A stretch of 62,217 bases of DNA from a virus. The position numbers and the translations under genes are program-made. Within the stretch, counting starts at the first letter, position 1. Each line of letters opens with the position of its first letter. The notes beneath the pieces are model-generated. The model had not been told where the DNA came from. It searched no databases and saw only the letters and a program-made list of their open reading frames with translations. This document shows positions 5,500 through 59,952 of this stretch, piece after piece. Where the stretch lies: positions 1 to 62,217 of IMG/VR virus record IMGVR_UViG_3300013307_000006; one strand, given 5' to 3'.

Positions 5500-5790
5500 A
5501 TGGCAAAGCGACCATTCCCACAACTGACGACGGAATCGGAAAAGGTCCAAAAGGCTCGCATGGTGATCGAGCGCCTAGGGCTTGTATGCGTTGACAAAGA
5601 ACTTACCGTGCCGGTGCGGTTCAGCAGCATCGAGCTTCAGGAAACGCTTGGTGAGCAGGAATTCTTTGGGCTCGCCACGTTCCTTCGCATGGACCCCAAG
5701 GAACTGTACGATCTGGTTCGCGAATATCACATTGACGCCAGTGACGGCGACATCAAGATGGTCCGCACGGTCCCGATGGAGCGGAAGTAA
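5500..5790 (+). CDS. Hypothetical protein
   Basis: A 96-residue protein beginning 3 bases after the polymerase stop (TGACTATGG) and ending in TAATG shared with the next gene. It contains no recognised motif; secondary structure looks mixed alpha/beta. Tight packing shows it is co-translated with the polymerase and the DUF1643 protein. Confidence 0.75.
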   Translation: MAKRPFPQLTTESEKVQKARMVIERLGLVCVDKELTVPVRFSSIELQETLGEQEFFGLATFLRMDPKELYDLVREYHIDASDGDIKMVRTVPMERK

Positions 5791-6302
5791 TGATCCAGTG
5801 CTACGCACAAGGCGCGCGAATCAGCAAGTGCAACCAGTACCGCTACGACCTGCGGCGCTTCTGGGGCAAGGCTCCCTTCTGCCTGTGGGTCATGCTCAAT
5901 CCCAGCACGGCCGATGCGAACGTGAACGACCGGACTATCAGCAAGATCATGGGCTTTAGCGAGCGCTGGGGATTCGGTGGGCTCGTGGTCGTGAACCTGT
6001 TTGCCTTTCGATCTACGGACCCCGAACGGCTCCCCTATGTGACGGACCCGATCGGTCCCGACAACGACAAGTACATCCTGGGCTGGGTTGCCAAGCCCGA
6101 GATTTCGCGCGTGTTCGTCGGGTGGGGTGCGTACGGCAAGCTCCAGGACCGCGGGCTCCAGGTGGGTCGGATGCTCCAGGCTGCGGGCGCTGAAATGTGG
6201 TGCCTCTACGTGAACGGTGACGGGCACCCCAAGCACCCGCTTTACGTCGCCAACGACACGGCTCCCAAGCTGTGGCAACCGGGGCGAATCAGGGAGGATT
6301 GA
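5790..6302 (+). CDS. DUF1643 family protein
   Basis: A 170-residue protein with the family signature VMLNPSTADANVNDRTI near residues 33-49 and later G-rich and DND segments, as in phage and bacterial DUF1643 proteins. Their biochemical role is not established; the fold has been linked to glycosylase-like or nucleic-acid modification contexts only by association. ATG 5790 overlaps the upstream TAA by one base and the 3' end overlaps the next gene by one base (TGATG). Confidence 0.8.
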   Translation: MIQCYAQGARISKCNQYRYDLRRFWGKAPFCLWVMLNPSTADANVNDRTISKIMGFSERWGFGGLVVVNLFAFRSTDPERLPYVTDPIGPDNDKYILGWVAKPEISRVFVGWGAYGKLQDRGLQVGRMLQAAGAEMWCLYVNGDGHPKHPLYVANDTAPKLWQPGRIRED

Positions 6303-9705: not shown

Positions 9706-9747
9706 AAAAGACCCTCAGACGGCCCGTAGGTCGTCCGAGGGTCTTTT
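9706..9747. terminator. Bidirectional intrinsic terminator between the two arms
   Basis: AAAAGACCCTC and GAGGGTCTTTT arms with an almost fully paired inner stem and a CGTA loop. T-runs flank both sides, so it can stop the rightward and the leftward arm. Confidence 0.92.
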
Positions 9748-15656: not shown

Positions 15657-15671
15657 ACCGAAAATTTCGGT
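15657..15671. repeat. Repeat A palindrome, exact
   Basis: Between the tape-measure stop and the distal tail start; repeat B is 5 bases further upstream in the direction of transcription. Confidence 0.9.
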
Positions 15672-22688: not shown

Positions 22689-22709
22689 ATCGCGCGCCTC
22701 GCGAAAACG

Positions 22710-22750
22710 AACGGGGACGGCTGGCGGCGCTACGAACCAGCCGCCCCGTT
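22710..22750 (-). terminator. Terminator-like hairpin after the capsid gene
   Basis: AACGGGG(A)CGGCTGG pairs with CCAGCCG-CCCCGTT, 14 bp with one bulge. On the minus strand it is followed by CGTTTTCG, a short T-run. Confidence 0.6.
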
Positions 22751-22759
22751 CTGCAACGG

Positions 22760-22775: not shown

Positions 22776-23837
22776 CTACCCGAAGAAGCAGATGATGACC
22801 GCGGACGGGTAGTAGAACGCCGGGCCGCCGTTGTGGCCGCGATGGAATTCGATGTTCGCCGGGGTGCGAACCTCACCGTTGCGACCGTTGGCGCGGTCGA
22901 TCGTGTAGCTGTAGCTGCCCGGCGCGCCGCCCGCGCTGATGTTGCGGGTCATGATGTAGTTGCCGATCGCGACGTTGCCGGGGCGCTGACCGATCAATAC
23001 GCCGACGCCATCGGGGATGAACTTCTGGAACACGCCACCGCGCTTCGGCGGCTTGTTGTAGTACCCGCCGTCGTACACCCGGATGTTGGCGAGGTTCTGC
23101 CCGCCGAAATACCCGTTGGCGTTCACGAGGTTGTTCAGCGTCGCGCCCATGTTGTTGCGACGGCCGCCGAGGTCCAGGTTGTTGGCGTTGTTTAGCATCC
23201 GGTTGGCCGTGACCTGATTCATGTAGATCGTGGCACCGGCACCGAAGTTCACCGACCGACCGGCAGCCGTACCGCGCTGCTGGAGGTTCTGGAGGTCCAG
23301 GATCGGCGTGGCCGTCGCACTGGTGGACCACGGCACCAGCGGCGTGTAACTCTGGAAGCTGTACACGTCCTTGTAACCCACCTGCTGACCATCATCGCCG
23401 TCGATGAGGATTTGCAGGACGCCCGTGGTGAGCAGGGTCCAGATCGAGGACTCGATCCGGTCGTTCTCGCGCTGGATGAGGATGCGGTCCGCTTCCGCGG
23501 CGAGGTCGTTGATGGTGATATTCGTGCTGGGAATATCGAAATTCCCGGCACGAATCATGAGTTCCGTCTCGGTCACGTCGTAGTATTCACCGAAGACACC
23601 CGGCTCATACTCGTACGTGGTCGAGCCGACGCGCTGCACGCGCGTGGGCTTGCCGTCCAGACCGCGAAGGTGCTGGAGCCCGCCGTACACGTCGGCTTGG
23701 GTCCAGCGGACCTTGTAAAATTCGCTGGTCGTGATCGGCATGATTTCCAAGCCGAGGCGACCAGCGCGGTCCTGGACAATCCATTCCGGTTGAATAACCC
23801 GCGTGCGGGTTGCAGTAGTGGGGTAGGTGAACGGCAT
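22776..23837 (-). CDS. Major capsid protein, HK97 fold (lambda E-like)
   Basis: A 353-residue protein. It has the length and secondary structure of lambda E-type major capsid proteins, with an N-arm (TTATRTRVIQPEWIVQD), a central helical spine rich in acidic and Arg residues (AAEADRILIQRENDRIESSIW) and a long beta-rich E-loop/A-domain. It follows the protease/scaffold and decoration genes, the standard order. A hairpin precedes the start and a terminator-like hairpin follows the stop, so it may have its own mRNA ends. Confidence 0.85.
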   Translation of the reverse strand: MPFTYPTTATRTRVIQPEWIVQDRAGRLGLEIMPITTSEFYKVRWTQADVYGGLQHLRGLDGKPTRVQRVGSTTYEYEPGVFGEYYDVTETELMIRAGNFDIPSTNITINDLAAEADRILIQRENDRIESSIWTLLTTGVLQILIDGDDGQQVGYKDVYSFQSYTPLVPWSTSATATPILDLQNLQQRGTAAGRSVNFGAGATIYMNQVTANRMLNNANNLDLGGRRNNMGATLNNLVNANGYFGGQNLANIRVYDGGYYNKPPKRGGVFQKFIPDGVGVLIGQRPGNVAIGNYIMTRNISAGGAPGSYSYTIDRANGRNGEVRTPANIEFHRGHNGGPAFYYPSAVIICFFG

Positions 23838-23866: not shown

Positions 23867-23904
23867 GAAGCGGCGAGTGGTGTTGCCGGGTGCCTCGCCG
23901 CTTC
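23867..23904 (-). terminator. Stem-loop upstream of the capsid gene
   Basis: GAAGCGGCGAG pairs exactly with CTCGCCGCTTC (11 bp, 16-base loop) and overlaps repeat B (CTTCTGGGGAAGG). Weak T-run; it may be an RNA processing or stability element, not a terminator. Confidence 0.5.
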
Positions 23905-24807: not shown

Positions 24808-25458
24808 CTAGGCGACCTTGACCTCTGGAAACACGGCGCGGAACTGGTCCGGCGTGTAAGCCGGGAGCCCCTGGCTCGTGCGGAGCTTGTTGGCCGCCTC
24901 GATGGTCATGGGCGTGCCGGTGTTGTCGAACGCGAAGGGCTTATCGCCTTCGCTGCCCGGAATGTCGCGCGGGGCCGGCTGATCCTTGCTGAGGTTCTTC
25001 CCCAGGTCCGTGGGCTTGCCGTCCTCGAAAGCCGCCAAGACCTTCTGATACGGGAAGCTCCCGTCTTCCGCCTTAACGAACATCGCCTCGATCGGCTGGG
25101 CATCGTCGGACAGCAGACCCGTCTTCAGGTCCACGGTGCCGGCGGCGAGGAACGATGCGCACAGGTTCTTGGCTGCGATGGCGGTGAGCCCGCGCTTTTC
25201 CTGGAGCAGTTGGACGCGCTCCACCGCCATGGTGCAACGGCTCCGGAGCAGGTCCGGGTCCATGGCGCTGACGCCGCCCGAGCCACCCTTCGCCTTGGTC
25301 TTGACGGCCTTATCGAGGTCCGCCTTCAGCTTGCCGTTCCGCTTCGCCATGTTCTTGGCAAGGCGGAAGGCGACACGATCCGCGTTGTCGGCGGTGACGG
25401 TCACGTTGTCGCCGGCCATCGCTTGAAGTTCCTCAAGCTGTGCTTCGGTCCAGTCCAT
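24808..25458 (-). CDS. Nested capsid scaffold protein (internal start)
   Basis: An in-frame ATG at 25458 (MDWTEAQLEELQ) has a strong AGGAGT seven bases upstream and lies just after a Pro/Ser linker. The 216-residue product would be the free scaffold, exactly as Nu3 lies within lambda C. The region contains an alternating Lys/Asp helix segment around residues 35-60. Inference from site strength and the lambda precedent. Confidence 0.75.
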   Translation of the reverse strand: MDWTEAQLEELQAMAGDNVTVTADNADRVAFRLAKNMAKRNGKLKADLDKAVKTKAKGGSGGVSAMDPDLLRSRCTMAVERVQLLQEKRGLTAIAAKNLCASFLAAGTVDLKTGLLSDDAQPIEAMFVKAEDGSFPYQKVLAAFEDGKPTDLGKNLSKDQPAPRDIPGSEGDKPFAFDNTGTPMTIEAANKLRTSQGLPAYTPDQFRAVFPEVKVA

Positions 25459-26481
25459 GGTGGGACTCCTGTTACTGGCGGCCGGTGATGGTTTCCCTTC
25501 GCCGGGGCCGCGCTTGGCCGGCTGCGGGTTTTCGTTCATGTGGGCACGGGCATAGTCCCATGCCTCATCCGACGTGCAGACTGCATCGCACAGACCAACC
25601 TTGACCGCCTGCTGGCCGATGTAGACGCGAGCCGTGGCGGCATCGTCAATCTGTGCCTTGCTCATCTTCCGGCCGGACTGCACTTCCGCCTTGAAGACGT
25701 TGGCAAACGAGTCAACGCGGTGCTGGAGTTCTGCCCGTTGTTCGGGCGTGATCTTCCGGCCCGGCGCGCCGATCGCCTTGAACTTGCCACTGTCTAGGAC
25801 GATGGGCTTAACGGAGCCCTTCCGCCCGGCTCCGCTGGCATCCACGAGTTGGGACTTGATACCCAGCGAACCAACTTGAGCAGCCGGCCCACAGGTGAAG
25901 CGAGTACCTTGGGTCGCGACCCACAGGGCAGCGCTGGCGGCCGTATCCTCCGCGTGGACGTAGACGGGCATGACCTTGGCCGTCTTTCGGATCGACGCCG
26001 CCAGTTCAGCCGTACCCTCCAGGGTGCCGCCGGGGCTATCCACGTCGATGAACACGGCATGCGCCTTGCCGTCCGCTTTGAGCGCCCGAGCTTGACGCAG
26101 GGCGTCACGCATACGCATCGTGGAACTGCCCCCCAGGACCGCCGACATCGACGTGTCGAACTTGGTCATGGGTCCGTTGATGGACAGTCGCACGATGCCA
26201 TCCTGGAGCGTGAACGGCTGACGGCTCATGGATGCCGCGATACTGGCGCTCTTAGCCTGGGTCTGCCGAAGCTCCCCGCTCGTGAGGATCGCCCACCCGG
26301 TATCCCGCCATTGCTCTAGGACGTTGGCCGCCACGAGCCAATCCCCGTACACGGTGTCCATGCGGCAGCCCGTGATCGGATGGTGCTTGGCTTCGCGGCG
26401 CTCGTGCCGGCCTTTGACCTTGGTCTTGGCCGTCTTGCCATGAATAACCTTGCCGCGCTTGGTGAAGTAGACGAAGGGCAT
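24808..26481 (-). CDS. S49-family prohead protease with C-terminal scaffold domain
   Basis: A 557-residue protein. The N-terminal SppA/ClpP-fold domain shows FIDVDSPGGTLEGTAEL (about residues 143-159) and the probable nucleophile region EDTAASAALWVATQG near 180. The C-terminal 216 residues are charged and helical, as expected for a scaffold. It would mature the prohead from inside. Between portal and decoration/capsid genes, as in lambda C. Start ATG 26481 follows repeat B and CGGAG. Confidence 0.88.
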   Translation of the reverse strand: MPFVYFTKRGKVIHGKTAKTKVKGRHERREAKHHPITGCRMDTVYGDWLVAANVLEQWRDTGWAILTSGELRQTQAKSASIAASMSRQPFTLQDGIVRLSINGPMTKFDTSMSAVLGGSSTMRMRDALRQARALKADGKAHAVFIDVDSPGGTLEGTAELAASIRKTAKVMPVYVHAEDTAASAALWVATQGTRFTCGPAAQVGSLGIKSQLVDASGAGRKGSVKPIVLDSGKFKAIGAPGRKITPEQRAELQHRVDSFANVFKAEVQSGRKMSKAQIDDAATARVYIGQQAVKVGLCDAVCTSDEAWDYARAHMNENPQPAKRGPGEGKPSPAASNRSPTMDWTEAQLEELQAMAGDNVTVTADNADRVAFRLAKNMAKRNGKLKADLDKAVKTKAKGGSGGVSAMDPDLLRSRCTMAVERVQLLQEKRGLTAIAAKNLCASFLAAGTVDLKTGLLSDDAQPIEAMFVKAEDGSFPYQKVLAAFEDGKPTDLGKNLSKDQPAPRDIPGSEGDKPFAFDNTGTPMTIEAANKLRTSQGLPAYTPDQFRAVFPEVKVA

Positions 26482-26491
26482 GTCCGGACTC

Positions 26492-26508
26492 CGTTTTCTG
26501 GGGGAGGG
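26492..26508 (-). repeat. Repeat B variant
   Basis: GACCCTCCCCCAGAAAA on the minus strand, between portal stop and protease start. Confidence 0.8.
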
Positions 26509-28272: not shown

Positions 28273-28287
28273 ACCAAAAATTTCGGT
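28273..28287. repeat. Repeat A, one-mismatch copy, abutting the portal start
   Basis: ACCAAAAATTTCGGT on plus; ends six bases before the portal ATG. Confidence 0.85.
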
Positions 28288-28659: not shown

Positions 28660-30126
28660 CTAGAACTGCCGAAGGCGAGGGTTGTCCACGATCACAGGTG
28701 CTTCAGCGTAGACCTCGATCTGCGTCCCGCCGATGTCGTCCGCATAGCAGATGAGATAGCGGAGCGCATCCATGCCGTGGTTGTCCTTGTCGATCGGCAC
28801 TTCCTTGAGGGACTTCTCCGAATCCTGCTTGGGGGGCTTCGGATAACGGTAGTTCGCGAATTCATCCAGCGTGGAAGCCGGGAGCTTTTCCTCTTCCAGG
28901 TCTTCGTCATGCTCCACTCGCATATCCACCACGAAGTAGACCCGCGGACGAAGCTGGCCGTCACTGTGCATCGAATCCTGGAGCCGGCGCTTGACTGCTT
29001 CGATGCCGGGCTCGATTTCCTTGAACGCCGGAGCGCTGTCAATGCCTTCCTTGTCCAGGGTCGCACGGTCTTCGCGGTCGTGGTCCGCGACGGTCATTTC
29101 CACGTTGCCGTCCCCGTCTGACAGTTGCTTGATGCCCTTGTGAAGGAGGGTCTTTTCTCCCGTGTCCGGATCGGTTTCCCACACACCCGATGCGTGTTCG
29201 GCTACGATCCGCTTGGTCATGTAGATTTCACGGAAGACGTACAGATCGCCGTCCGGATCGAGCGCACCCCAGAGGCACACAAACGGGTTCTGGAAGCCAA
29301 AGTCGATCGCCCGGACCTTCCGCCAATCCCTCCAGGGTTTCTTCTCGAAAGCCTCGCGGGTAATGACGTGCTTCTCCATGCTGAATTCGGGGTACACGGC
29401 ACCTTCGGCCACGACCCACTTGCCTTCCAGCAGCCGTTGGCGGCGAACGCCCGTTAGCCGGCGAAGACGGTTGTTGATGTAGCGCTCACCCTGCTCCGTG
29501 TACTTGCCGAGCTTGATGTCAAAGAACACCGGATTGTCCCGGTGCGTCGTCGGGATACGGGTCATGGTCCCCTTGGACGCACGACGGTTAAGCCAGTGAT
29601 TGGGCGCGTCTGGGTTACAGTCGCACACGATCTGGCTATAGGGAATCACGCCGACACGGCGGTCCATGCGGCTTGTGAGGAATTCAAAGTCCTTCTCGGT
29701 CAATTCTGTCGCCTCGAAAGCGAAAACCGCATCGTACTCGGCGGACATGATCTTTTCGGGCTTGTCCAAGCCCGCAACGACTAGCTCTGACCCGTTTTTC
29801 AGCGTGTAGCTCTCACGCATCTTACGGCTCGGACCCTGGAGCAAGTACGAGCCTTCGGGAACGACCCATTCCTCGAAAATCTGGAGGACGGTCTGGGTCA
29901 TGCTCTCGCGCGTCTTACGTGCGAGCAGGATGCGGCTCCCCGGATACTTCATTGCCATGAGGTATGCCTTTTCCAAGGCACACCGGGTCTTGCCCGTACC
30001 AGCCGGACCCTCCAACAAGACTTCAGAGTCTTTGCACCCCCAGAAACGGCGAAGGTTGCCCTGGGGCTTGAACCGACGATTCGGGTTCCGCTTGCGGGGA
30101 GCCTCTTTAACGTCCGCGTCAGTCAC
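28660..30126 (-). CDS. terL: Terminase large subunit
   Basis: A 488-residue packaging motor. Walker A is LLEGPAGTGKTR (about residues 37-48), the Walker B-like region is YDAVFAFEATEL near 135, and the nuclease domain has AIDFGFQNP near 260 with a distal DNHGMDALRY near 460. It cuts and translocates DNA into the prohead. ATG 30126 overlaps the small-subunit stop (ATGA). Order TerS-TerL-portal-protease-capsid is canonical. Confidence 0.95.
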   Translation of the reverse strand: MTDADVKEAPRKRNPNRRFKPQGNLRRFWGCKDSEVLLEGPAGTGKTRCALEKAYLMAMKYPGSRILLARKTRESMTQTVLQIFEEWVVPEGSYLLQGPSRKMRESYTLKNGSELVVAGLDKPEKIMSAEYDAVFAFEATELTEKDFEFLTSRMDRRVGVIPYSQIVCDCNPDAPNHWLNRRASKGTMTRIPTTHRDNPVFFDIKLGKYTEQGERYINNRLRRLTGVRRQRLLEGKWVVAEGAVYPEFSMEKHVITREAFEKKPWRDWRKVRAIDFGFQNPFVCLWGALDPDGDLYVFREIYMTKRIVAEHASGVWETDPDTGEKTLLHKGIKQLSDGDGNVEMTVADHDREDRATLDKEGIDSAPAFKEIEPGIEAVKRRLQDSMHSDGQLRPRVYFVVDMRVEHDEDLEEEKLPASTLDEFANYRYPKPPKQDSEKSLKEVPIDKDNHGMDALRYLICYADDIGGTQIEVYAEAPVIVDNPRLRQF

Positions 30127-36739: not shown

Positions 36740-36752
36740 CTTTCTGGGGAAG
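36740..36752 (-). repeat. Repeat B
   Basis: CTTCCCCAGAAAG read on minus, between the membrane-anchored protein and the secreted hydrolase-like gene. Confidence 0.8.
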
Positions 36753-36756
36753 AGGG

Positions 36757-37353
36757 TCAAAGGGTTTGCTCGATCCAAGCGGCATATTCTTTCAGCCGCG
36801 ACTCCAAGTTTTCGGGCTTGTCACAGTGATCGAAGTCCAGCCCGATGAATCCGACCGGCTTCCCTGCCTTGAAGATGGTCTGCCGGGCTCCAGCCCTGAC
36901 ACCCGTTTCTTCCATCATCTGACGGAAGTTGCTCAGGTGAAGCGAATCCACACAAAACCACCCAGGTCCATCATCCTGGATGTACTTCATTTCGTCCGCG
37001 ATGGTCGAAATCAGGACGGCTTTGAACCGTCCCGTCTCGTGGCTCACTCCGTCCCTGACCACTTCCGCCACGCGGCTCTTGCGGAGGATGTCCGAGCCGT
37101 CCACGTACTGATCGCCGTTGTGGAACTTACTGAGATAAGCCCGCATCGCGTTGTACTCGATGCGAAGGCGCTCCAGGATTTCCGTCTGGATGGCGCTCTG
37201 CTCGGTTGTCTCGTGGATAGGATGGTGGGGCTGACTACGGCTTGCTCGCTTCCGCTTAATCCAGTCGTTGCCCCAGATGAGCAGGGCGGTGATTCCGGAG
37301 TAAATGAAGACGCCTAGCGCCTCCCCGAGCGTAGGAATGCTACCGTGGGCCAT
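36757..37353 (-). CDS. Membrane-anchored GAF-like domain protein
   Basis: A 198-residue protein with one transmembrane helix near residues 15-32 followed by a basic stop-transfer (KRKRASR), giving a cytoplasmic C-terminal domain. That domain includes YLSKFHNGDQY and GKPVGFIGLDFD, which look like a GAF-type fold. Start ATG 37353; the frame upstream runs through the terminator and is rejected. Role in lysis or membrane sensing is open. Confidence 0.6.
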   Translation of the reverse strand: MAHGSIPTLGEALGVFIYSGITALLIWGNDWIKRKRASRSQPHHPIHETTEQSAIQTEILERLRIEYNAMRAYLSKFHNGDQYVDGSDILRKSRVAEVVRDGVSHETGRFKAVLISTIADEMKYIQDDGPGWFCVDSLHLSNFRQMMEETGVRAGARQTIFKAGKPVGFIGLDFDHCDKPENLESRLKEYAAWIEQTL

Positions 37354-37399: not shown

Positions 37400-37430
37400 A
37401 GCCCCCGCCGGTTCGGGACCGGCGGGGGCT
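37400..37430 (-). terminator. Strong intrinsic terminator
   Basis: A 13-bp perfect stem (AGCCCCCGCCGGT) with a 5-base loop. On the minus strand it is followed by CTTGTTATTCC. It closes the lysis sub-operon. Confidence 0.82.
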
Positions 37431-37455: not shown

Positions 37456-37470
37456 ACCGAAAATTTCGGT
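37456..37470. repeat. Repeat A palindrome, exact, touching a stop codon
   Basis: Begins on the base after the TAG of the 77-residue protein gene and lies 25 bases before the terminator. Confidence 0.9.
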
Positions 37471-38456: not shown

Positions 38457-38485
38457 GGTCCAAAGGGCTACGAACCCTTTGGACC
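38457..38485. terminator. Stem-loop next to repeat C
   Basis: GGTCCAAAGGG pairs exactly with CCCTTTGGACC (11 bp, 7-base loop). The plus side is followed by ATTGTTTT; the minus side has only TCTTAAT, so termination of the late arm here may be partial. Confidence 0.65.
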
Positions 38486-39633: not shown

Positions 39634-39649
39634 ACCTTTCTGGGGAAGG
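39634..39649 (-). repeat. Repeat B
   Basis: Directly joined to repeat A (39650-39664), upstream of the peptidase gene. Confidence 0.85.
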
Positions 39650-39664
39650 ACCGAAATTTTCGGT
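39650..39664. repeat. Repeat A palindrome, exact, fused to repeat B
   Basis: A and B are contiguous here in the order A then B along the minus strand. Confidence 0.9.
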
Positions 39665-41345: not shown

Positions 41346-41966
41346 TCACGGCTGTGTCGTCGCCATGGGCTGTGCATCGGAAAGCCTCACGATGTATTCG
41401 GCGGGAATGTGGACCTCTGCAAACCCCAATTCTAGCTTGAACTGGCAGAGCGGGCGTTCGGGATCGTGCTGGACGATTTGCCCCTCGAAATTCACAAACG
41501 GGCCGTCAATGACGCGAATCGGCTCACCAGGACGGTACTTGCATAGCTTCAGGGAGCGCTCGCGGTAGATCGCGGCCATTTCTCGCTTCATCTTGACCTG
41601 CACGGCCGTCTTTAGAACCCCGTGGACGAAGCGAGCCGTCCGGACCTCGTACTCCATCGGCGTGACGGACGTGTAGTACCCCTCTTGGATGGGCTCGTGG
41701 TGGGCTTGAAAGAAAAGGATGCCGTCGAATAAGGGCAACAATACCGTGTTCCCGCTGTCCGTTTTACTTCGGACGTAGGGCAGGAAGTACGAAATGCCGT
41801 GCTGGAGCAGCCACCATGCGACCGCCTTTTCTTTCCGCGAACCCACCAAGGCTACAGCCCAGGGGCAGGGACCAAAAATTTCCGGGTCCACCCACGTCCA
41901 CACCTTGGGGGCTTCCCCCCGTGACCCAAGGTGCAATTCCGGCGGATTATCATTCAGTGCAAGCAC
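41346..41966 (-). CDS. NusG/RfaH-like transcription elongation factor
   Basis: A 206-residue protein. The NGN-like domain begins at CPWAVALVGSRKEKAVAWWLLQHGISYFLPYVR and the C-terminal KOW domain contains YRPGEPIRVIDGPFVNFEGQIV. NusG paralogs bind RNA polymerase and prevent pausing or termination. GTG 41966 is preferred to GTG 42026 because a promoter (-35 42043-42048, -10 42020-42025) would start RNA near 42013. A degenerate repeat A lies in its N-terminal linker (DPEIFGP). It sits near the head of the late arm. Confidence 0.85.
   Translation of the reverse strand: MLALNDNPPELHLGSRGEAPKVWTWVDPEIFGPCPWAVALVGSRKEKAVAWWLLQHGISYFLPYVRSKTDSGNTVLLPLFDGILFFQAHHEPIQEGYYTSVTPMEYEVRTARFVHGVLKTAVQVKMKREMAAIYRERSLKLCKYRPGEPIRVIDGPFVNFEGQIVQHDPERPLCQFKLELGFAEVHIPAEYIVRLSDAQPMATTQP
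41871..41886. repeat. Repeat A, degenerate, within the NusG-like gene
   Basis: ACCAAAAATTTCCGGG, encoding PEIFG just before the NGN-like domain. Confidence 0.5.
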
Positions 41967-42019
41967 GCCGGGGGTTCCTGGGAATGGTCCCGTGGATCGC
42001 AGAAATGCCCACCGCGAGT

Positions 42020-42048
42020 ATTCCACGAACTATTCCTAAAATTGTCAA
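42020..42048 (-). promoter_or_regulatory. Promoter of the NusG-like gene
   Basis: TTGACA (42043-42048), 17-base spacer, TGGAAT (42020-42025), with A/T-rich sequence upstream. Confidence 0.65.
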
Positions 42049-42428
42049 GTAGTATTTTGAGAATTTTTCACGGGCCGCCGGACGGTCACTTCCACCCTGA
42101 ACTTGACGTGATCCCGCCCCAAGACCGCTTCGCCCGTCGCCAAGCTGGCGTGGACGCGCGTGAGCGCCAGGCTCGATAACTCGTAACGGCCGCCCACGAA
42201 GATCGAGGACGCATCGCTAGCCGGCATACACGAGCGGCTTCCATCGGCGTGCTGGCCGTGAACGCCCTTCGGCGCTGCCGTGATTTCGATGTACCCGAAC
42301 ACTGTGGGCTCGCCTTCGATCACGAGGTTCCCGTGGTGCCAGAACGCGGGCAAGGTGTTCTCCCGCGTGCAGACATCGCGGTACGGCGTTTCGGGAAGAA
42401 TGCCGGTGTCGTTGGGGTCTTGGCTCAT
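42045..42428 (-). CDS. Hypothetical protein
   Basis: A 127-residue beta-rich protein overlapping the beta-helix gene by four bases (ATGA). The C-terminus (KFRVEVTVRRPVKNSQNTT) overlaps the promoter of the NusG-like gene. No family recognised. Confidence 0.7.
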   Translation of the reverse strand: MSQDPNDTGILPETPYRDVCTRENTLPAFWHHGNLVIEGEPTVFGYIEITAAPKGVHGQHADGSRSCMPASDASSIFVGGRYELSSLALTRVHASLATGEAVLGRDHVKFRVEVTVRRPVKNSQNTT

Positions 42429-43168
42429 GACGCTCCCTGAAATTTACAGAGCTTCCCGAAGCGAGACGCTTGGTCGAGCAGAACGCCCTTCGGGAAGACA
42501 TTCTTGACCACAGTGATTCGGTCCATGATCCCGTAGACCTTTTCGTGGCCCGTGGGGTAATAGTCCACGACGTAGATGTCGGTGTCCGCGCCGTAGCTGC
42601 TGTTCATCTGGATGTCGTGACCGAGCCCGCCAGCACAGGTGATGTAGCATCGGGAATTCATGCCCCGGTTTTGGAGGACCGTAACCTTCGGAGGGAAGGG
42701 GCCGTCGATGCAAATGTGAGTACACGTATCGCTTCGGCTGCGGTTGTACGTGTGGCAAAGCTCGATAATGACGTGCTTCTGGAGCGTGGCCGGCTCATCC
42801 CCGTAGATGTTGATGAGGTCTTCGGAGTCGCCGGGCGTGGCGGCGGGGATGTCACCGCCCAGGGCATCGACCCAGCAGTAGTGAATGAGTCCGCCGCAGT
42901 TGATCGCCTGGATGCCGTGGCCGTCTGATCCGCCCACCGGGTTCCGCATCCCCTGGACGAAGAGGTTCACGAGCCGGAACCCCTCGCACTTATTCAGGCG
43001 AATCCCGCAGGTGCCCCCGGTCAGCGCCACGTCGGACAGCGTGAAGCCAGGAACACCCACGACCTCCACGTTCTCACGGGTGAAATCGGCGGACTTGACC
43101 ACGTACCGGCCACCGACCTTCATAGGGGCGGCACGCTTGTACACGTCGAGGGGACTTATGGCTTGCAC
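42425..43168 (-). CDS. Right-handed beta-helix protein
   Basis: A 247-residue protein with repeated short beta strands and Asn/Gly turns (GIRLNKCEGFRLVNLFVQGMRN, HGIQAINCGGLIHYCWV, landmarks near 55-100), the pattern of pectate-lyase/parallel beta-helix folds in tailspikes. It is far from the main fibre genes and lacks fibre attachment repeats, so it may be a separate spike or a polysaccharide-binding factor. It overlaps the small upstream gene by 13 bases. Confidence 0.65.
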   Translation of the reverse strand: MQAISPLDVYKRAAPMKVGGRYVVKSADFTRENVEVVGVPGFTLSDVALTGGTCGIRLNKCEGFRLVNLFVQGMRNPVGGSDGHGIQAINCGGLIHYCWVDALGGDIPAATPGDSEDLINIYGDEPATLQKHVIIELCHTYNRSRSDTCTHICIDGPFPPKVTVLQNRGMNSRCYITCAGGLGHDIQMNSSYGADTDIYVVDYYPTGHEKVYGIMDRITVVKNVFPKGVLLDQASRFGKLCKFQGAS

Positions 43169-43374
43169 GGGGGTTCATCCTTTCTAGCGTCGTTCTCGTG
43201 AGGGGCGATGGCACACAGGGCTCGCACGAGACGGGTCAGGCGCATCCATTCACGGTAGGCGGCTTCAGTCTTTCCTCCCAGAAGGTGCAACTGTACCGTT
43301 TGGGCGGACGTGTGGATGTCGGTTGCGGCATCCATGACACGTCCGGCGTCCGCAAGCAACTTTCCCGCATCCAT
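43156..43374 (-). CDS. Small helical protein
   Basis: A 72-residue protein with a GGGGGAG ribosome site. It is helical with a short polar C-terminus. No family recognised. Confidence 0.6.
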   Translation of the reverse strand: MDAGKLLADAGRVMDAATDIHTSAQTVQLHLLGGKTEAAYREWMRLTRLVRALCAIAPHENDARKDEPPCKP

Positions 43375-43386
43375 GGCTCCCCCGGA

Positions 43387-43713
43387 TTAAAGGTCCAGGA
43401 ACCAGAGGACTTTGTTAGAGTCTTTCGTTGTCACGCATCGGCCGATGTTGAACGTGGCAGGGCGGCCCGCCGCCTCCCAATGCACGTACGCCAGCATTGC
43501 CATCTGCCGGGCTGCTAGGGCTCGCATTCGATTTTCCCATTTCGAGGACATGGCAGTCTTGGGGATGGACCATTGGAAGAATCCCCCCGTCCGAACGCTG
43601 TAGTAGGTGTCCGGGCTGGGGGTCTTGTTGGTCAGGTTGACCTTCTGAGTGCCGAATTCGTTCCCCAGGAAGTCCCGGACCGTGTTGAACTCGTTCTGAA
43701 CTGCCGTTGGCAT
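43387..43713 (-). CDS. Hypothetical protein
   Basis: A 108-residue protein starting at ATG 43713 after repeat B and TGGAG. It has an alpha/beta pattern (EFNTVRDFLGNEFGTQKVN; RMRALAARQMAMLAYVHWEA). The gene upstream (43945) stays open through 300 bases of this one in another frame; this frame looks like the real protein there. Confidence 0.7.
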   Translation of the reverse strand: MPTAVQNEFNTVRDFLGNEFGTQKVNLTNKTPSPDTYYSVRTGGFFQWSIPKTAMSSKWENRMRALAARQMAMLAYVHWEAAGRPATFNIGRCVTTKDSNKVLWFLDL

Positions 43714-43945
43714 GGTGGGGCTCCATTTTCTGGGGAAGGGTCACATGGAATTCGGGTAAGTCGCGGGTTACGTCGTAGGTGGGGACGGAAATTTTCGGTG
43801 TGCAGTCCGGACAGGCGTACTTTATTCGCTGGGGGTACTCCGCGAGAATGGCGGTCCAACCCTTGGGCCACGGGTCGCCTTCATCCAGGCGGATTCCGCG
43901 GCATTCGCAGAAGTCACAAATTAGGTATTGAACGGTCCGAAGCAT
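43415..43945 (-). CDS. Zinc-ribbon protein with overrunning 3' end
   Basis: A 176-codon frame. Only the first 50-70 residues look real: a zinc ribbon CDFCECRG...CPDC, then repeat A encoding TPKISV. The rest overlaps the next gene in another frame for about 300 bases and has the biased composition of a shadow frame. The natural stop may have been lost when repeats A and B arrived, or a sequencing indel is present. Confidence 0.6.
   Translation of the reverse strand: MLRTVQYLICDFCECRGIRLDEGDPWPKGWTAILAEYPQRIKYACPDCTPKISVPTYDVTRDLPEFHVTLPQKMEPHHANGSSERVQHGPGLPGERIRHSEGQPDQQDPQPGHLLQRSDGGILPMVHPQDCHVLEMGKSNASPSSPADGNAGVRALGGGGPPCHVQHRPMRDNERL
43725..43741 (-). repeat. Repeat B
   Basis: GACCCTTCCCCAGAAAA on minus, just upstream of ATG 43713. 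Confidence 0.85.
43785..43799. repeat. Repeat A, one-mismatch copy
   Basis: ACGGAAATTTTCGGT; 44 bases upstream of the repeat B copy in the same junction. Confidence 0.85.
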
Positions 43946-44114: not shown

Positions 44115-44141
44115 AAGAGCCTCGAAATTATCGAGGCTCTT
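44115..44141 (-). terminator. Intrinsic terminator
   Basis: AAGAGCCTCGA pairs with TCGAGGCTCTT, 5-base loop; minus strand continues TCTTTATTTC. It ends the 44170 gene. Confidence 0.9.
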
Positions 44142-44169: not shown

Positions 44170-44697
44170 TTACTGCTCGTTAGGTTTGTCGTGGTCGGCT
44201 GCCATGTCTCGCAAGGCATCGGCAATGGCGTTCTGGTCGTGGCCGCAGCGCTCAACGAGGTCTTGGCCTTTCTTGGTGAGCTTGGCGGTGAACGTCACGA
44301 CACCGGGAGGGATCGGCAGAGACTTGGCGTCGGCGGGGCACTGGATGCTCAGTTGCCAATGCACGTCGCCGGTAATGGGGTCGTCGTACGTCCGGGCGTT
44401 GGAGATGTAAAGCGTGTCGGGGAACCACCACGCCGTCCACCACATGCGGACGGCTGCTTCCATGAGGTTCCAGATTTGGACGTGCGCGAGGTCTTTCTGG
44501 TCGCCTTCCTTGCGGCGGACGATCCCGCATAAAAGAACTCCCCCGCGGTCTTCGGCGTCGGGAACGGGGACGGGGAAGTTAATCGCGGTCATGTCGTGGT
44601 AGTGTGCCCAGACGCCGCTTATCACGTCGAGCCTCACGTCGTCGGTGTACCTGCTCTCCGCGTCGAAAGGCTCGAAAGGGTTAAAAGTGTGTGACAT
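44170..44697 (-). CDS. Hypothetical protein, own transcription unit
   Basis: A 175-residue acidic alpha/beta protein. It is the first leftward gene, bounded by its own promoter and a strong terminator, which points to an immediate-early role. The sequence has several Trp residues (WWTAWWFPDTLY). No family recognised. Confidence 0.7.
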   Translation of the reverse strand: MSHTFNPFEPFDAESRYTDDVRLDVISGVWAHYHDMTAINFPVPVPDAEDRGGVLLCGIVRRKEGDQKDLAHVQIWNLMEAAVRMWWTAWWFPDTLYISNARTYDDPITGDVHWQLSIQCPADAKSLPIPPGVVTFTAKLTKKGQDLVERCGHDQNAIADALRDMAADHDKPNEQ

Positions 44698-47639: not shown

Positions 47640-47654
47640 ACCGAAAATTTCGGT
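47640..47654. repeat. Repeat A palindrome, exact
   Basis: Between the stop at 47634 and a terminator hairpin. Confidence 0.9.
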
Positions 47655-47663
47655 CCTGTTTCA

Positions 47664-47694
47664 AACCCCCGGTGCCCTTGCGCCGGGGGTTTTT
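47664..47694 (+). terminator. Intrinsic terminator
   Basis: AACCCCCGG pairs with CCGGGGGTT, followed by a run of five T. Confidence 0.9.
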
Positions 47695-54298: not shown

Positions 54299-55489
54299 AT
54301 GGCTGGCGCTACCGAACAAGTCGCACTGACGCCCCTGAAGAACTTCGCGGAGGTCGATCCGACCCTGATCGTGGTCGATCCCAAGATCAACAGCCGGACC
54401 GTCCGGCCCGATCGTGTCAAGAGCATGGTCGAGAGCTACAAGCAGCGCGGCCAGGACACGCCCGTCCGGGTCGTGCTGATCGACGGCAAGTACAAGCTCG
54501 TGTTCGGGTACACCCGGCACGCGGCGGCCGTCGAGTACAACAAGGAACACCCCGACGCGCCGATGAAGCTGAAGATCGAGGTCGTCCGCAACGTGGACGA
54601 AAAGGCCGCCTACATTTCGTCGGTGGTCGAGAACTTCGAGCGCACCGACCCGACGCCGATCGAACTGGCGACTCAGGCGAAGACCCTGGAGCAGGACTTC
54701 GGCATGGCCCCCGGCGATGTCGCCAAGGTCTTCGGCAAGCCCGGCTCGGACGGCGTGGATTGGGTGAACCAGATTCAGAAGTTGCTCACCCTGCCGGCCA
54801 AGGCGCAGAAGATGGTCGAGCAGAAGCAACTGCCGACGATCGCCGCCCTGGAGCTTGTGGGGCTCCCCGAGAAGGAAGTGGCGGACATCCTGGACAAGGC
54901 TCCGCGCTTCGGCCCCGAGAACCGCATTAAGGGCGAGGCGGTCCGCACCGCGGCCCGCGAGGTCAAGCGGAAGACCGGCACCGGCGGCAAGGGCAAGAAC
55001 GCCAGCACCGCCAACGCGGAAGAGGGCAAGCCCGTCCGCAAGGCGAGTGAGGTCGTGGAAGCCATCGCGAACCTGACCGGCCCCGGCGAGGACGAGCCGG
55101 TCCGTACGCTCGCCAAGAAAATCCTGGCGTTCAAGGACGGCAAGATCGGCGTCGATGCCCTGGAGCGCGCCTTCCGGACCCTGGGCGGCGCGATCGAAGA
55201 GAACGCCACCGCCAAGGCCAGCGCCCGTGAGGTCGCGGAGAAGGCGGAAATGAAGACCAAGGCTGAGAAGGCGGCCAAGGCCGCTGCCGCCAAGGCCGCC
55301 AAGGACGCCGCCAAGCCCAAGCCGGCCCCCAAGGCTCCCAAGGCCAAGGGCGGCAAGGGCAAGGCCGCTACGACCGCCGCTCCCGCAGCGCCGGCCGCTG
55401 CCGCCCCGGCTCCCGTCGCCGCCGCGCCCGCGCCGGCCGCCGGTCCGCAGCCGGTCGCGGTCGATGAGGTCGATCCGCCGTTGAGCTAG
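54299..55489 (+). CDS. ParB-like protein with histone H1-like tail
   Basis: A 396-residue protein. The ParB/Srx domain (about 15-110) has FGYTRHAAA and VVENFERTDPTPIE. A KorB-like helical region follows. From about residue 285 to the end it is Lys/Ala/Pro-rich (KAAKAAAAKAAKDAA), like histone H1 tails. It may spread on DNA and compact it, or act in partition or regulation. ParB proteins with H1-like tails are uncommon. ATG 54299. Confidence 0.85.
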   Translation: MAGATEQVALTPLKNFAEVDPTLIVVDPKINSRTVRPDRVKSMVESYKQRGQDTPVRVVLIDGKYKLVFGYTRHAAAVEYNKEHPDAPMKLKIEVVRNVDEKAAYISSVVENFERTDPTPIELATQAKTLEQDFGMAPGDVAKVFGKPGSDGVDWVNQIQKLLTLPAKAQKMVEQKQLPTIAALELVGLPEKEVADILDKAPRFGPENRIKGEAVRTAAREVKRKTGTGGKGKNASTANAEEGKPVRKASEVVEAIANLTGPGEDEPVRTLAKKILAFKDGKIGVDALERAFRTLGGAIEENATAKASAREVAEKAEMKTKAEKAAKAAAAKAAKDAAKPKPAPKAPKAKGGKGKAATTAAPAAPAAAAPAPVAAAPAPAAGPQPVAVDEVDPPLS

Positions 55490-55509: not shown

Positions 55510-55541
55510 AGGGGCGGGTCAAGTACCAGTGACCCGCCCCT
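55510..55541 (+). terminator. Terminator-like stem-loop
   Basis: AGGGGCGGGTCA pairs with TGACCCGCCCCT, 8-base loop; followed by TGCATTTC, a weak T-run. Confidence 0.7.
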
Positions 55542-55550
55542 TGCATTTCG

Positions 55551-55566
55551 ACCCCTTCCCCAGAAA
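55551..55566 (+). repeat. Repeat B
   Basis: CCCCTTCCCCAGAAAG, then AAAGG and ATG 55582. Confidence 0.85.
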
Positions 55567-56416: not shown

Positions 56417-56423
56417 TCAAGTC

Positions 56424-56521: not shown

Positions 56522-56550
56522 GAACCCCGCTGGCGGCACCAGCGGGGTTC
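56522..56550 (+). terminator. Intrinsic terminator/attenuator at a start codon
   Basis: GAACCCCGCTGG pairs exactly with CCAGCGGGGTTC (12 bp), followed by TTGTTT and the helicase ATG at 56557. Confidence 0.82.
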
Positions 56551-56556
56551 TTGTTT

Positions 56557-58020
56557 ATGCGTGATCCGCTCCCCTGGCATCCCGAGCCGTTGAAGTATCT
56601 GCGGCACGCCAGGAAGGCATTCCTGGGGATCGACAAGCGCCTGGGCAAGAGCTACCTCGCGTCCATGTGGACGCACTACCACCAATTCCCCCGTGTCCTC
56701 ATTGCGGCCCCCATGTCCGCCATCCCCGATTGGCTCCGCGGCCTGGAGGACGGTGACGGTGAAATCGCCTGGGACATGACCCAACACCGAAATTTTCAGG
56801 AATGGCTGGAGTGGGGGGACAAGCTCCCTGGCCGATTCTTCATCATCAATCACCACGGGTTGTTCTTGCCCAAAGGCCGCCGCATCAAATGCCACGTCTG
56901 CGGAGGCAAGGACATCGCGTGCAAGACGTGCTATGGTGCGGGAACCGTAACCCGGTCCTACATCATGCCCAACGTCCTGGCCGTCTATGATTGGCCCGCC
57001 GTGATCTGGGATGAGACGACGTTGATTCGCAACCCGCAGTCCCAGATGAACAACGTGGCTCATACCTGCCTGGGGTCCATACCCTGCCGGTGTGGCTTAT
57101 CCGGCGAGTACGTTCCCGAGACACCCCTGGACGTGTTTGAACAACTGCGCTGGGTGTTCGGCACGTTCATGGGTCACTCCAACTTTTGGAAATGGCGGAA
57201 CGAATACTTTGAACCGCTCGGCTATGGCTGGGAACCCAAGGTGGGGGTTCGCGAGCAAATCCGCAACGCCGTCAAGCAATGCGGATTCCTCATGCGTAAG
57301 CAGGACGTAGGGCTCGTGAATGAGACGTTCTACGAGCCGCGATACTGTGACCTTCCCCAGAAAGCGAAGCGCATTTATGACCACGCCGAAGCATGGATGG
57401 AGATACCGGGTGCCGATGGTCACGATACACTTTACACGAAGTATGCCGTGGCCGTTCGGACGTGGCTTTGCCGCCTCGCTGGAGGATACATGCCGGAGCG
57501 CCCGGACCTCCAATCCGACCACAAGCTCAAGCTGCTCTGGGAGGTTATCCAGGAACACCCTCACGAGCCCCTTGTGGTTTCTTTCCGGCACAATGCGGAA
57601 CTGGAAGCCGCGGAGGCTTTTCTCGCGCGCAAGGGCGAGACGACGATGGTACTCCGCGGCGCTCAGGACACACAGGTACGGCGAGACAATCAAGACCGCT
57701 TTCGTGACGGCCGTGCCCGTATCTGCCTTAAACAAGCTAAGGTCCATTTCGGCGCTGATCTGGCGGCTGCCGATACGATGATCCGCTACAGTTTGCCGGA
57801 CCGTTATGAGGACGTGAGCCAGGACCGTGATCGCATCTGGAATCCGTCTGTCAAGCGCCGGCCGCTGCTCTACATCGACCTCATCACGCGGGACACCGTG
57901 GATGAAGATTTGGTCCTGGCGTCTAAGCTCAAGGGGATTAACGCCCGATACTTCATGACCAAGGTGGATGAGTTGTTCACCCTTCGGTCGCAACTGAAAA
58001 GGAACATGGTGAAGAAATGA
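56557..58020 (+). CDS. SNF2-type DEAD/H helicase
   Basis: A 487-residue superfamily 2 ATPase. Walker A is degenerate (GIDKRLGKSYLA, residues 24-35), the DEAH-box equivalent is IWDETTL near 152, and the late arginine motif is SQDRDRIW near 430. A zinc insert (CHVCGGKDIACKTCYGAG) sits near 110-130. It is likely a dsDNA translocase in replication or recombination. Start ATG 56557 has no ribosome site because a terminator hairpin lies there. A degenerate repeat A is at 56786, repeat B at 57352. Confidence 0.85.
   Translation: MRDPLPWHPEPLKYLRHARKAFLGIDKRLGKSYLASMWTHYHQFPRVLIAAPMSAIPDWLRGLEDGDGEIAWDMTQHRNFQEWLEWGDKLPGRFFIINHHGLFLPKGRRIKCHVCGGKDIACKTCYGAGTVTRSYIMPNVLAVYDWPAVIWDETTLIRNPQSQMNNVAHTCLGSIPCRCGLSGEYVPETPLDVFEQLRWVFGTFMGHSNFWKWRNEYFEPLGYGWEPKVGVREQIRNAVKQCGFLMRKQDVGLVNETFYEPRYCDLPQKAKRIYDHAEAWMEIPGADGHDTLYTKYAVAVRTWLCRLAGGYMPERPDLQSDHKLKLLWEVIQEHPHEPLVVSFRHNAELEAAEAFLARKGETTMVLRGAQDTQVRRDNQDRFRDGRARICLKQAKVHFGADLAAADTMIRYSLPDRYEDVSQDRDRIWNPSVKRRPLLYIDLITRDTVDEDLVLASKLKGINARYFMTKVDELFTLRSQLKRNMVKK
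56786..56800. repeat. Repeat A, degenerate, in the helicase gene
   Basis: ACCGAAATTTTCAGG, encoding part of QHRNFQEW. Confidence 0.5.
57352..57366 (+). repeat. Repeat B within the helicase gene
   Basis: CCTTCCCCAGAAAG, encoding LPQKA. Confidence 0.7.
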
Positions 58021-59068: not shown

Positions 59069-59083
59069 ACCGAAAATTTCGGT
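59069..59083. repeat. Repeat A palindrome, exact, near a start codon
   Basis: ACCGAAAATTTCGGT followed by GTGGTTATGG; no Shine-Dalgarno sequence. Confidence 0.9.
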
Positions 59084-59089
59084 GTGGTT

Positions 59090-59290
59090 ATGGCATCATT
59101 TATTGTCAGCATCTTCATGGGCGCTTTGCGAACTTGGCTCGTGTTTGTGGCTTTGTACGCTCGTGTATCTATGTTCTTCCGGCAGGCACCGAAAGAGTCG
59201 GACACTATTTGTCGTGGTTGCCAGCGACGTACACGAATCGGAGCCACTTACTGCCCGGTGTGCGGGACATATATTCATTACGGAAAATAA
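59090..59290 (+). CDS. Membrane-anchored zinc-ribbon protein
   Basis: A 66-residue protein: one transmembrane helix (about residues 3-24), then a zinc ribbon ICRGCQRRTRIGATYCPVCG. ATG 59090 (or GTG 59084) lies at repeat A. TAATG couples it to the glycosylase gene. Confidence 0.68.
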   Translation: MASFIVSIFMGALRTWLVFVALYARVSMFFRQAPKESDTICRGCQRRTRIGATYCPVCGTYIHYGK

Positions 59291-59952
59291 TGCCAACACT
59301 ACCCCTTAGCGTGCTAAAGTCCACCGCGCCCGTATGGGCTCGGCATTTCACGTACTGGCACAACTGCACCCGATGCGAAATCGGGAAGTTTGCCAAGCAC
59401 CACGTCTTTGCTCGTGGGCGTTTGCCGTGCGACATCCTCTTTCTGGGGGAGGCTCCAGGCGACACGGAGAATGACGTGGGCTACCCCTTCCTGGGAAGGG
59501 CAGGGCAGATATTCGATCAGTTCGTGGCGGAACTAAGCGCCCGGCTCTGGTATCGGTCCCTGCCGAAAGAGCAGCAGATTGCAGAGCTATTCGTGGCGGA
59601 CGATCTGAAGGGCTCGGACAAGCTCCGCTGGGCTGTGGCGAACACGGTCCTGTGCCGGCCGGCGGATTCACCGGAGGATCATTTCCGTGAGCCCACCCCC
59701 GCGGAGAAAGCGAACTGCCGGCCAAGGCTGGAAGAGTTCGTCCGGACGATCGCACAACCCAAGGTGATCTTCCGGATGGGCAAGCACGCGCAGTCTGCGG
59801 ACCTGGGCGTGCCGGTCCTGGATATGTACCACCCGAGCTACATCTACCGGAATGGCGGCACGAAGCATCCCACCGGCCGGCGCATCTTCGATAACGAGCT
59901 TTCGCGGGCGCTGGAGTTTGTTAGGGAAAAGGTTAATTCACAAATTTCATAA
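59290..59952 (+). CDS. Uracil-DNA glycosylase, family 4/5 type
   Basis: A 220-residue protein with FeS-cluster cysteines (CTRCEIGK near 26-29 and later CRP), motif A FLGEAPGDTEND (about 51-62), NTVLCRP, and the C-terminal HPSY motif. It removes uracil, or may act on phage base damage. One-base overlap with the upstream gene. A rightward promoter follows its stop. Confidence 0.88.
   Translation: MPTLPLSVLKSTAPVWARHFTYWHNCTRCEIGKFAKHHVFARGRLPCDILFLGEAPGDTENDVGYPFLGRAGQIFDQFVAELSARLWYRSLPKEQQIAELFVADDLKGSDKLRWAVANTVLCRPADSPEDHFREPTPAEKANCRPRLEEFVRTIAQPKVIFRMGKHAQSADLGVPVLDMYHPSYIYRNGGTKHPTGRRIFDNELSRALEFVREKVNSQIS

Follow-up and report, generated by a model that had tools for sequence, protein, structure and literature searches.

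Lambda Q, a protein unrelated to NusG, is loaded at the late promoter, and several of the phage antiterminators studied so far borrow the NusG of their host. To our knowledge, the studied phage antiterminators (N, Q and p7) are themselves unrelated to NusG. NusG itself is a universal protein that travels with RNA polymerase. Within its family, RfaH, LoaP and UpxY keep RNA polymerase processive through long bacterial operons (PMC7819879, PMC12691694). RfaH activates long operons (PMC2871177), and UpxY is encoded along with the operon that it serves (PMC7593976, PMC7819879). In the open-access literature on the NusG family that we consulted, reviews included, TaA, UpxY, RfaH, ActX and LoaP are listed, and no phage class. 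A search of the open-access literature likewise returned no papers that treat NusG paralogs encoded by phages as regulators of late genes, which does not prove novelty, and phage genes of this type have already been labelled antitermination protein or NusG by annotators. The existence of such proteins is known; their systematic position ahead of the terminase and their role are, as far as we have seen, undescribed.

The DNA analysed here, hereafter the window, is the whole of the IMG/VR record IMGVR_UViG_3300013307_000006 (62,217 bases). It carries a direct repeat of 123 bases at its ends, and the genome is therefore probably complete, and either circular or terminally redundant. Replication genes (DNA polymerase, primase, helicase, topoisomerase-like and ParB-like) occupy the plus strand at either end of the record, whereas the virion genes, including that of the tail fibre, are on the minus strand between about 43.7 and 9.8 kb; the two arms converge on a strong, two-way terminator-like hairpin at 9709–9744. 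The virion arm is marked by the large terminase subunit (28660–30126, minus strand; phrog_2, E = 5.2e-35), the head maturation protease (24808–26481, minus strand) and the major head protein (22776–23837, minus strand; phrog_29, E = 7.4e-13). A scan of proteins from part of the window's open reading frames (ORFs) recognised neither a sigma factor nor an RNA polymerase, and an Rfam search of the window gave no match.

As the original prediction had it, an ORF is present at 41346–41966 on the minus strand, which is the late strand. GTG 41966, with AGGA about 8 nt 5' of it, is probably the start of the gene and yields a protein of 206 residues; read from the first GTG (42026), the frame extends over 41346–42026 and encodes 226 residues. 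Late genes continue for 31.6 kb downstream (41.3 to 9.78 kb), matching the approximately 32 kb proposed, and the terminase large subunit gene lies 11.2 kb downstream on the same strand. The proposed place near the head of the late arm is roughly right, but the gene is not the first of the arm: late-strand ORFs at 42045–43713, one of which seems to encode a beta-helix protein, come before it, and ahead of these ORFs, at the head of the arm and after the gene at 44170–44697, there is a terminator-like hairpin with a U-rich tail (44115–44141, minus strand). A promoter-like element, TTGACA-17-TGGAAT, is located upstream of the gene (42020–42048, minus strand) and could be its own candidate promoter; it was not called in a promoter scan of the window.

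The encoded protein is confirmed as a two-domain member of the NusG family, as had been proposed from its NGN and KOW parts. The NCBIfam UpxY model NF033644 aligns along its entire length (model positions 1–164 of 164) with residues 56–212 (E = 4.2e-12), and the nusG model TIGR00922 matches the KOW part only (E = 8.6e-6). The Pfam KOW match is weak (E = 0.008, under its cut-off) and Pfam NusG (PF02357) does not match the window protein, so that annotation with a single library could overlook the gene. PHROG 6386, ‘transcription antiterminator’, is also a weak match (E = 1.7e-5). A leave-one-out profile of 61 relatives, from which the window protein was excluded, recovers the NusG-like frame with E = 1.4e-16 and picks out no other frame in the six-frame translation of the window, the next best having an E-value of 0.81. 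Almost the whole family profile also aligns with NusG (2.5e-32) and RfaH (3.7e-30) of E. coli. The NGN domain (about residues 35–120; 41607–41864, minus strand) displays PLFDGILFF at the position of the PLFPGYLFV motif, and the KOW domain (about residues 146–200; 41367–41531, minus strand) is modelled as beta-strands.

Structure prediction, which the original prediction had named as a check against NusG and RfaH, points the same way. An AlphaFold2 model computed from a 62-row alignment of the window protein and its relatives has a mean pLDDT of 79.8 and a pTM of 0.53, with pLDDT values of about 86–95 across most of NGN and about 95 across KOW; the first 28 residues are not confident, and a single-sequence AlphaFold model (pLDDT 35) was useless. 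The top Foldseek matches of the model in the PDB are NusG, RfaH and archaeal Spt5 (best E = 1.3e-7). Whole-protein TM-scores are low, about 0.22–0.44 for the first ten matches, probably because the domains can swing relative to each other; KOW by itself superposes on the corresponding domain of M. tuberculosis NusG at 1.6 Å. Thus, the NGN fold of the NusG/Spt5 superfamily is predicted to be present by the full-length UpxY match, the family profile, the model and Foldseek, and the C-terminal KOW by the curated-model match, the model and Foldseek. The beta form of KOW in the model is compatible with alpha-to-beta switching of the RfaH type or with its absence.

None of three subfamilies with curated models accommodates the window protein. 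It stays below the curated cut-offs of housekeeping NusG (TIGR00922, 25.7 bits against 135.7), RfaH (TIGR01955, 13.8 against 144.5) and UpxY (NF033644, 46.4 against 100), and was rejected as a member of all three. UpxY, the antiterminator of Bacteroides capsule operons, provides the best curated model and has the same NGN and KOW domains, but its identity to the window protein is 25–30% at best, and it belongs to a capsule locus whereas the window gene lies in a phage late arm. RfaH of Enterobacteriaceae also has two domains and a PLFPxYLFV-like NGN core; however, its target operons carry an ops element, whereas the E. coli ops sequence GGCGGTAGNNTG, with at most one mismatch, occurs in the window at chance level (5 found against 4.18 expected), a count that a divergent element would escape. 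Housekeeping NusG shares the domain order and the predicted fold, but matches in KOW only and falls into another clade, and the window gene is phage-located. In a tree of 81 proteins, which includes what we take to be the E. coli NusG and RfaH sequences, housekeeping NusGs form a single clade (100/97), as do the Bacteroides UpxYs (100/100). The window protein is outside both; it is loosely placed among phage proteins, joins none of them in a well supported group, and has a branch of 3.03, which marks it as very divergent. In the same tree, RfaH/ActX and UpxY adjoin the phage NusG paralogs and not housekeeping NusG; support for this is weak, and descent of RfaH/ActX and UpxY from phage proteins is therefore not claimed.

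When viral and genome collections were searched with the window protein alone, no relatives were found; these came from an alignment-based profile scan of IMG/VR, which identified NusG-like genes on 127 contigs, 80 of which were fetched. Dropping near-duplicates at 80% identity left 60 non-redundant loci, in which the terminase was sought with profiles that started from PHROG-checked and terminase-related proteins. A large terminase is recognisable in 50 of the 60, and in 49 of these 50 it lies downstream of the NusG-like gene on the same strand, at a median distance of about 1.9 kb; it is upstream in one and on the opposite strand in none. Fifteen loci have no less than 9.9 kb of flanking DNA on either side; among these, the terminase is downstream in 13 and upstream or on the opposite strand in none. 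The choice of viral contigs favours the presence of a terminase but would not alone yield such one-sided placement. The isolates phi3LM21 and Nsp-JY10 have a NusG-type gene immediately ahead of the terminase module, and in the isolate yong2 it closes both the early operon and the record, so that the terminase would follow across the record ends. The NusG-annotated proteins of these three isolates and PHROG 6386 belong to the same domain family as the window protein, but in the isolates the gene precedes the terminase module, whereas the window gene is 11 kb away in a genome with two opposed arms. The leave-one-out match makes the window protein kin to this phage group, with loose placement in the tree, and its gene is likewise upstream of the terminase on the same strand, at 11.2 kb against the 10 kb applied to the group. 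The gap that follows the NusG-like gene in the relatives is not clearly bigger than other gaps, and intrinsic terminators are not enriched there between this gene and the terminase. A ‘Bacteriophage sp.’ record (MT836553, fecal, unverified) was not counted as a phage relative, its protein resembling Bacteroides UpxY.

Lambda Q lies between the early and late operons, as do the related phage genes, and the job proposed here is alike. This position makes a role as late-operon antiterminator or processivity factor well supported for the phage group, and the occurrence of a similar gene ahead of the virion genes in dozens of phages suggests that phages use NusG-type proteins of their own to sustain transcription through late genes. 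For the window protein, we consider it probable, at roughly 70%, that it is a specialised NusG paralog borne by the phage, which makes the host RNA polymerase resistant to pausing and termination along the late arm of about 32 kb. The NGN domain would bind the host polymerase during elongation and the KOW domain would contact a partner, whether the ribosome, another host factor or RNA; the resulting complex would resist pausing and termination and read the virion arm, and the protein would thereby serve as lambda Q does in late transcription, or as RfaH, LoaP and UpxY do for long operons. The antiterminator role envisaged in the original prediction is thus favoured by the relatives' genes lying directly ahead of the terminase. 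In the window itself, it is favoured by the gene's place on the late strand, with 31.6 kb of late genes and stable hairpins between genes downstream of it, and by the lack of a recognised sigma factor or RNA polymerase in the part of the ORFs that was scanned. The claim is weaker for the window protein than for the group, since the ORFs at 42045–43713 and the hairpin at 44141–44115 precede the gene and the terminase is 11.2 kb downstream. The distance to the terminase, the preceding ORFs, the poor U-tracts of the late-arm hairpins described below, the lack of intrinsic-terminator enrichment in the relatives, the failure to find a loading site and the branch of 3.03 all count against the role. 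Genomic position is not function, and antitermination is here a prediction: we infer polymerase binding, antitermination and the manner of loading for the window protein, as well as that it acts as its relatives do despite the greater terminase distance.

The same NGN domain would occupy the NusG site on RNA polymerase in a mimic devoid of operon specificity, which would displace host NusG, for example so that Rho no longer silences phage DNA, or so that transcription and translation in the host become uncoupled. Such a protein could be expressed apart from the late arm from the possible promoter of its own, and would fit with the fact that no operon-specific loading site was identified for the window protein when repeat A (see below) and ops were considered. 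However, the recurrent pre-terminase place in unrelated phages points to late-operon control, whereas a gene for general host takeover would be expected among early genes, whatever their position, and we regard this explanation as unlikely. Considerably less probable still is a passenger gene, recently acquired or decaying, with no role in the late arm. The very long branch would be in keeping with such an origin, as would the result that no NusG was found in the terminase-related contigs tested, although most of these are fragments and so show little; but the frame of 206 residues is intact, the core motifs of both NGN and KOW are present, the fold model is confident and the placement of the group's genes is recurrent.

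How the protein might be loaded is a separate matter. The original prediction tied it to a repeat A, by analogy with RfaH and ops, without giving its letters; we took repeat A to be the palindrome ACCGAAAWTTTCGGT. Both arms carry it, with about 25 copies in all; most lie at stop/start junctions, often right after a stop codon and 6–30 nt 5' of the next start (e.g. 868–882, 15657–15671, 28273–28287, 37456–37470, 47640–47654 and 59069–59083). A 15-nt hairpin is possible, and five of five informative intergenic variants retain pairing (through G-U) on the mRNA strand only, three of them being the same change and perhaps not independent; this is a small hint that repeat A works as RNA, as an intercistronic hairpin. 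Two copies lie 9 and 25 nt before strong hairpins (47663–47692 and 37430–37400, respectively). These features would suit an antiterminator of the RfaH type that uses repeat A as its loading site, perhaps by way of a hairpin in RNA or DNA. We nevertheless consider this improbable: so many copies in stop-start gaps of both arms are unlike a single leader element, and in a search for exact matches none of the other fetched loci, among them NusG-bearing phages, contained a copy. Because of this absence and of the early-arm copies, we do not connect repeat A with the NusG-like protein, and the proposed link is unsupported. The nearest parallel in the papers that we found is a 17-bp palindrome in Cluster O mycobacteriophages; Corndog has 34 copies of it (PMC4351075).

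The four hairpins that were said to lie in the path of the late transcript do exist, as stable stems on the late strand, all of them between genes (−16.6 to −31.9 kcal/mol, z = −3.3 to −5.7 relative to shuffled sequence). That at 38457–38485 (−22.2 kcal/mol) has a poor U-tract on the minus strand, and that at 37400–37430 (minus strand, −30.3 kcal/mol), 47 nt ahead of the predicted start of the gene at 36757–37353, has a moderate one. The major head protein gene is preceded by a hairpin with no U-tract (23869–23902, minus strand, −16.6 kcal/mol) and followed by another (22709–22751, minus strand, −31.9 kcal/mol), after which comes GTTCGTTTTCG or similar. Because the U-tracts are weak or absent, it is uncertain whether the four act as terminators. 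They may instead be elements of RNA stability or processing, which would make sense for the two that flank the major head protein gene.

If many phages use a NusG paralog of their own as a late switch, this would explain late control where no Q is recognisable, bear on the origin of RfaH, UpxY and LoaP, and put simple test cases at hand, phi3LM21 being an isolate. A broader and rather speculative extension is that specialised NusG paralogs form a widespread and so far undescribed class of phage late antiterminators, equivalent in role to lambda Q, that this phage pool gave rise to RfaH, ActX and UpxY or helped them to spread, and that the window phage is a variant in which one protein serves the whole 32-kb arm.

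Several further features of the genome were observed. A close whole relative of the window phage was sought, and the search yielded only two matches: a contig of 10,972 bases (L001), which has seven head-module genes in common with the window at 40–59% identity, and one of 7,062 bases from a different metagenome (L219), with 100% identity to the window protease gene. A second repeat, CCCTTCCCCAGAAA, is found mostly in gene sense, 13–15 nt 5' of several start codons (26495–26508, 36741–36754, 39637–39650, 43727–43740, 55553–55566 and others), and as inverted pairs at 2756/2782 and 6334/6359; its AGAAAG-GG could extend a Shine-Dalgarno site. Single-base shuffles of the sequence contain essentially no ACCGAAAWTTTCGGT or CCCTTCCCCAGAAA. 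The plus-strand genes include those of a DUF1643 protein (5790–6302, E = 3.2e-40), a protein of the uracil-DNA-glycosylase superfamily (59134–59952, E = 2.6e-21) and a ParB-like protein (54299–55489, HTH_ParB, E = 1.2e-5), the last in a phage that also carries a dispersed palindrome. Strong terminator-like hairpins lie inside the plus-strand arm at 47663–47692 and 55511–55540, with genes continuing downstream. On the same strand, a promoter-like CTTGACA at 56423 is followed by a strong hairpin with a U-rich tail (56522–56550), directly past which the helicase gene starts at 56557, so that the segment 56423–56557 looks like an attenuated leader.
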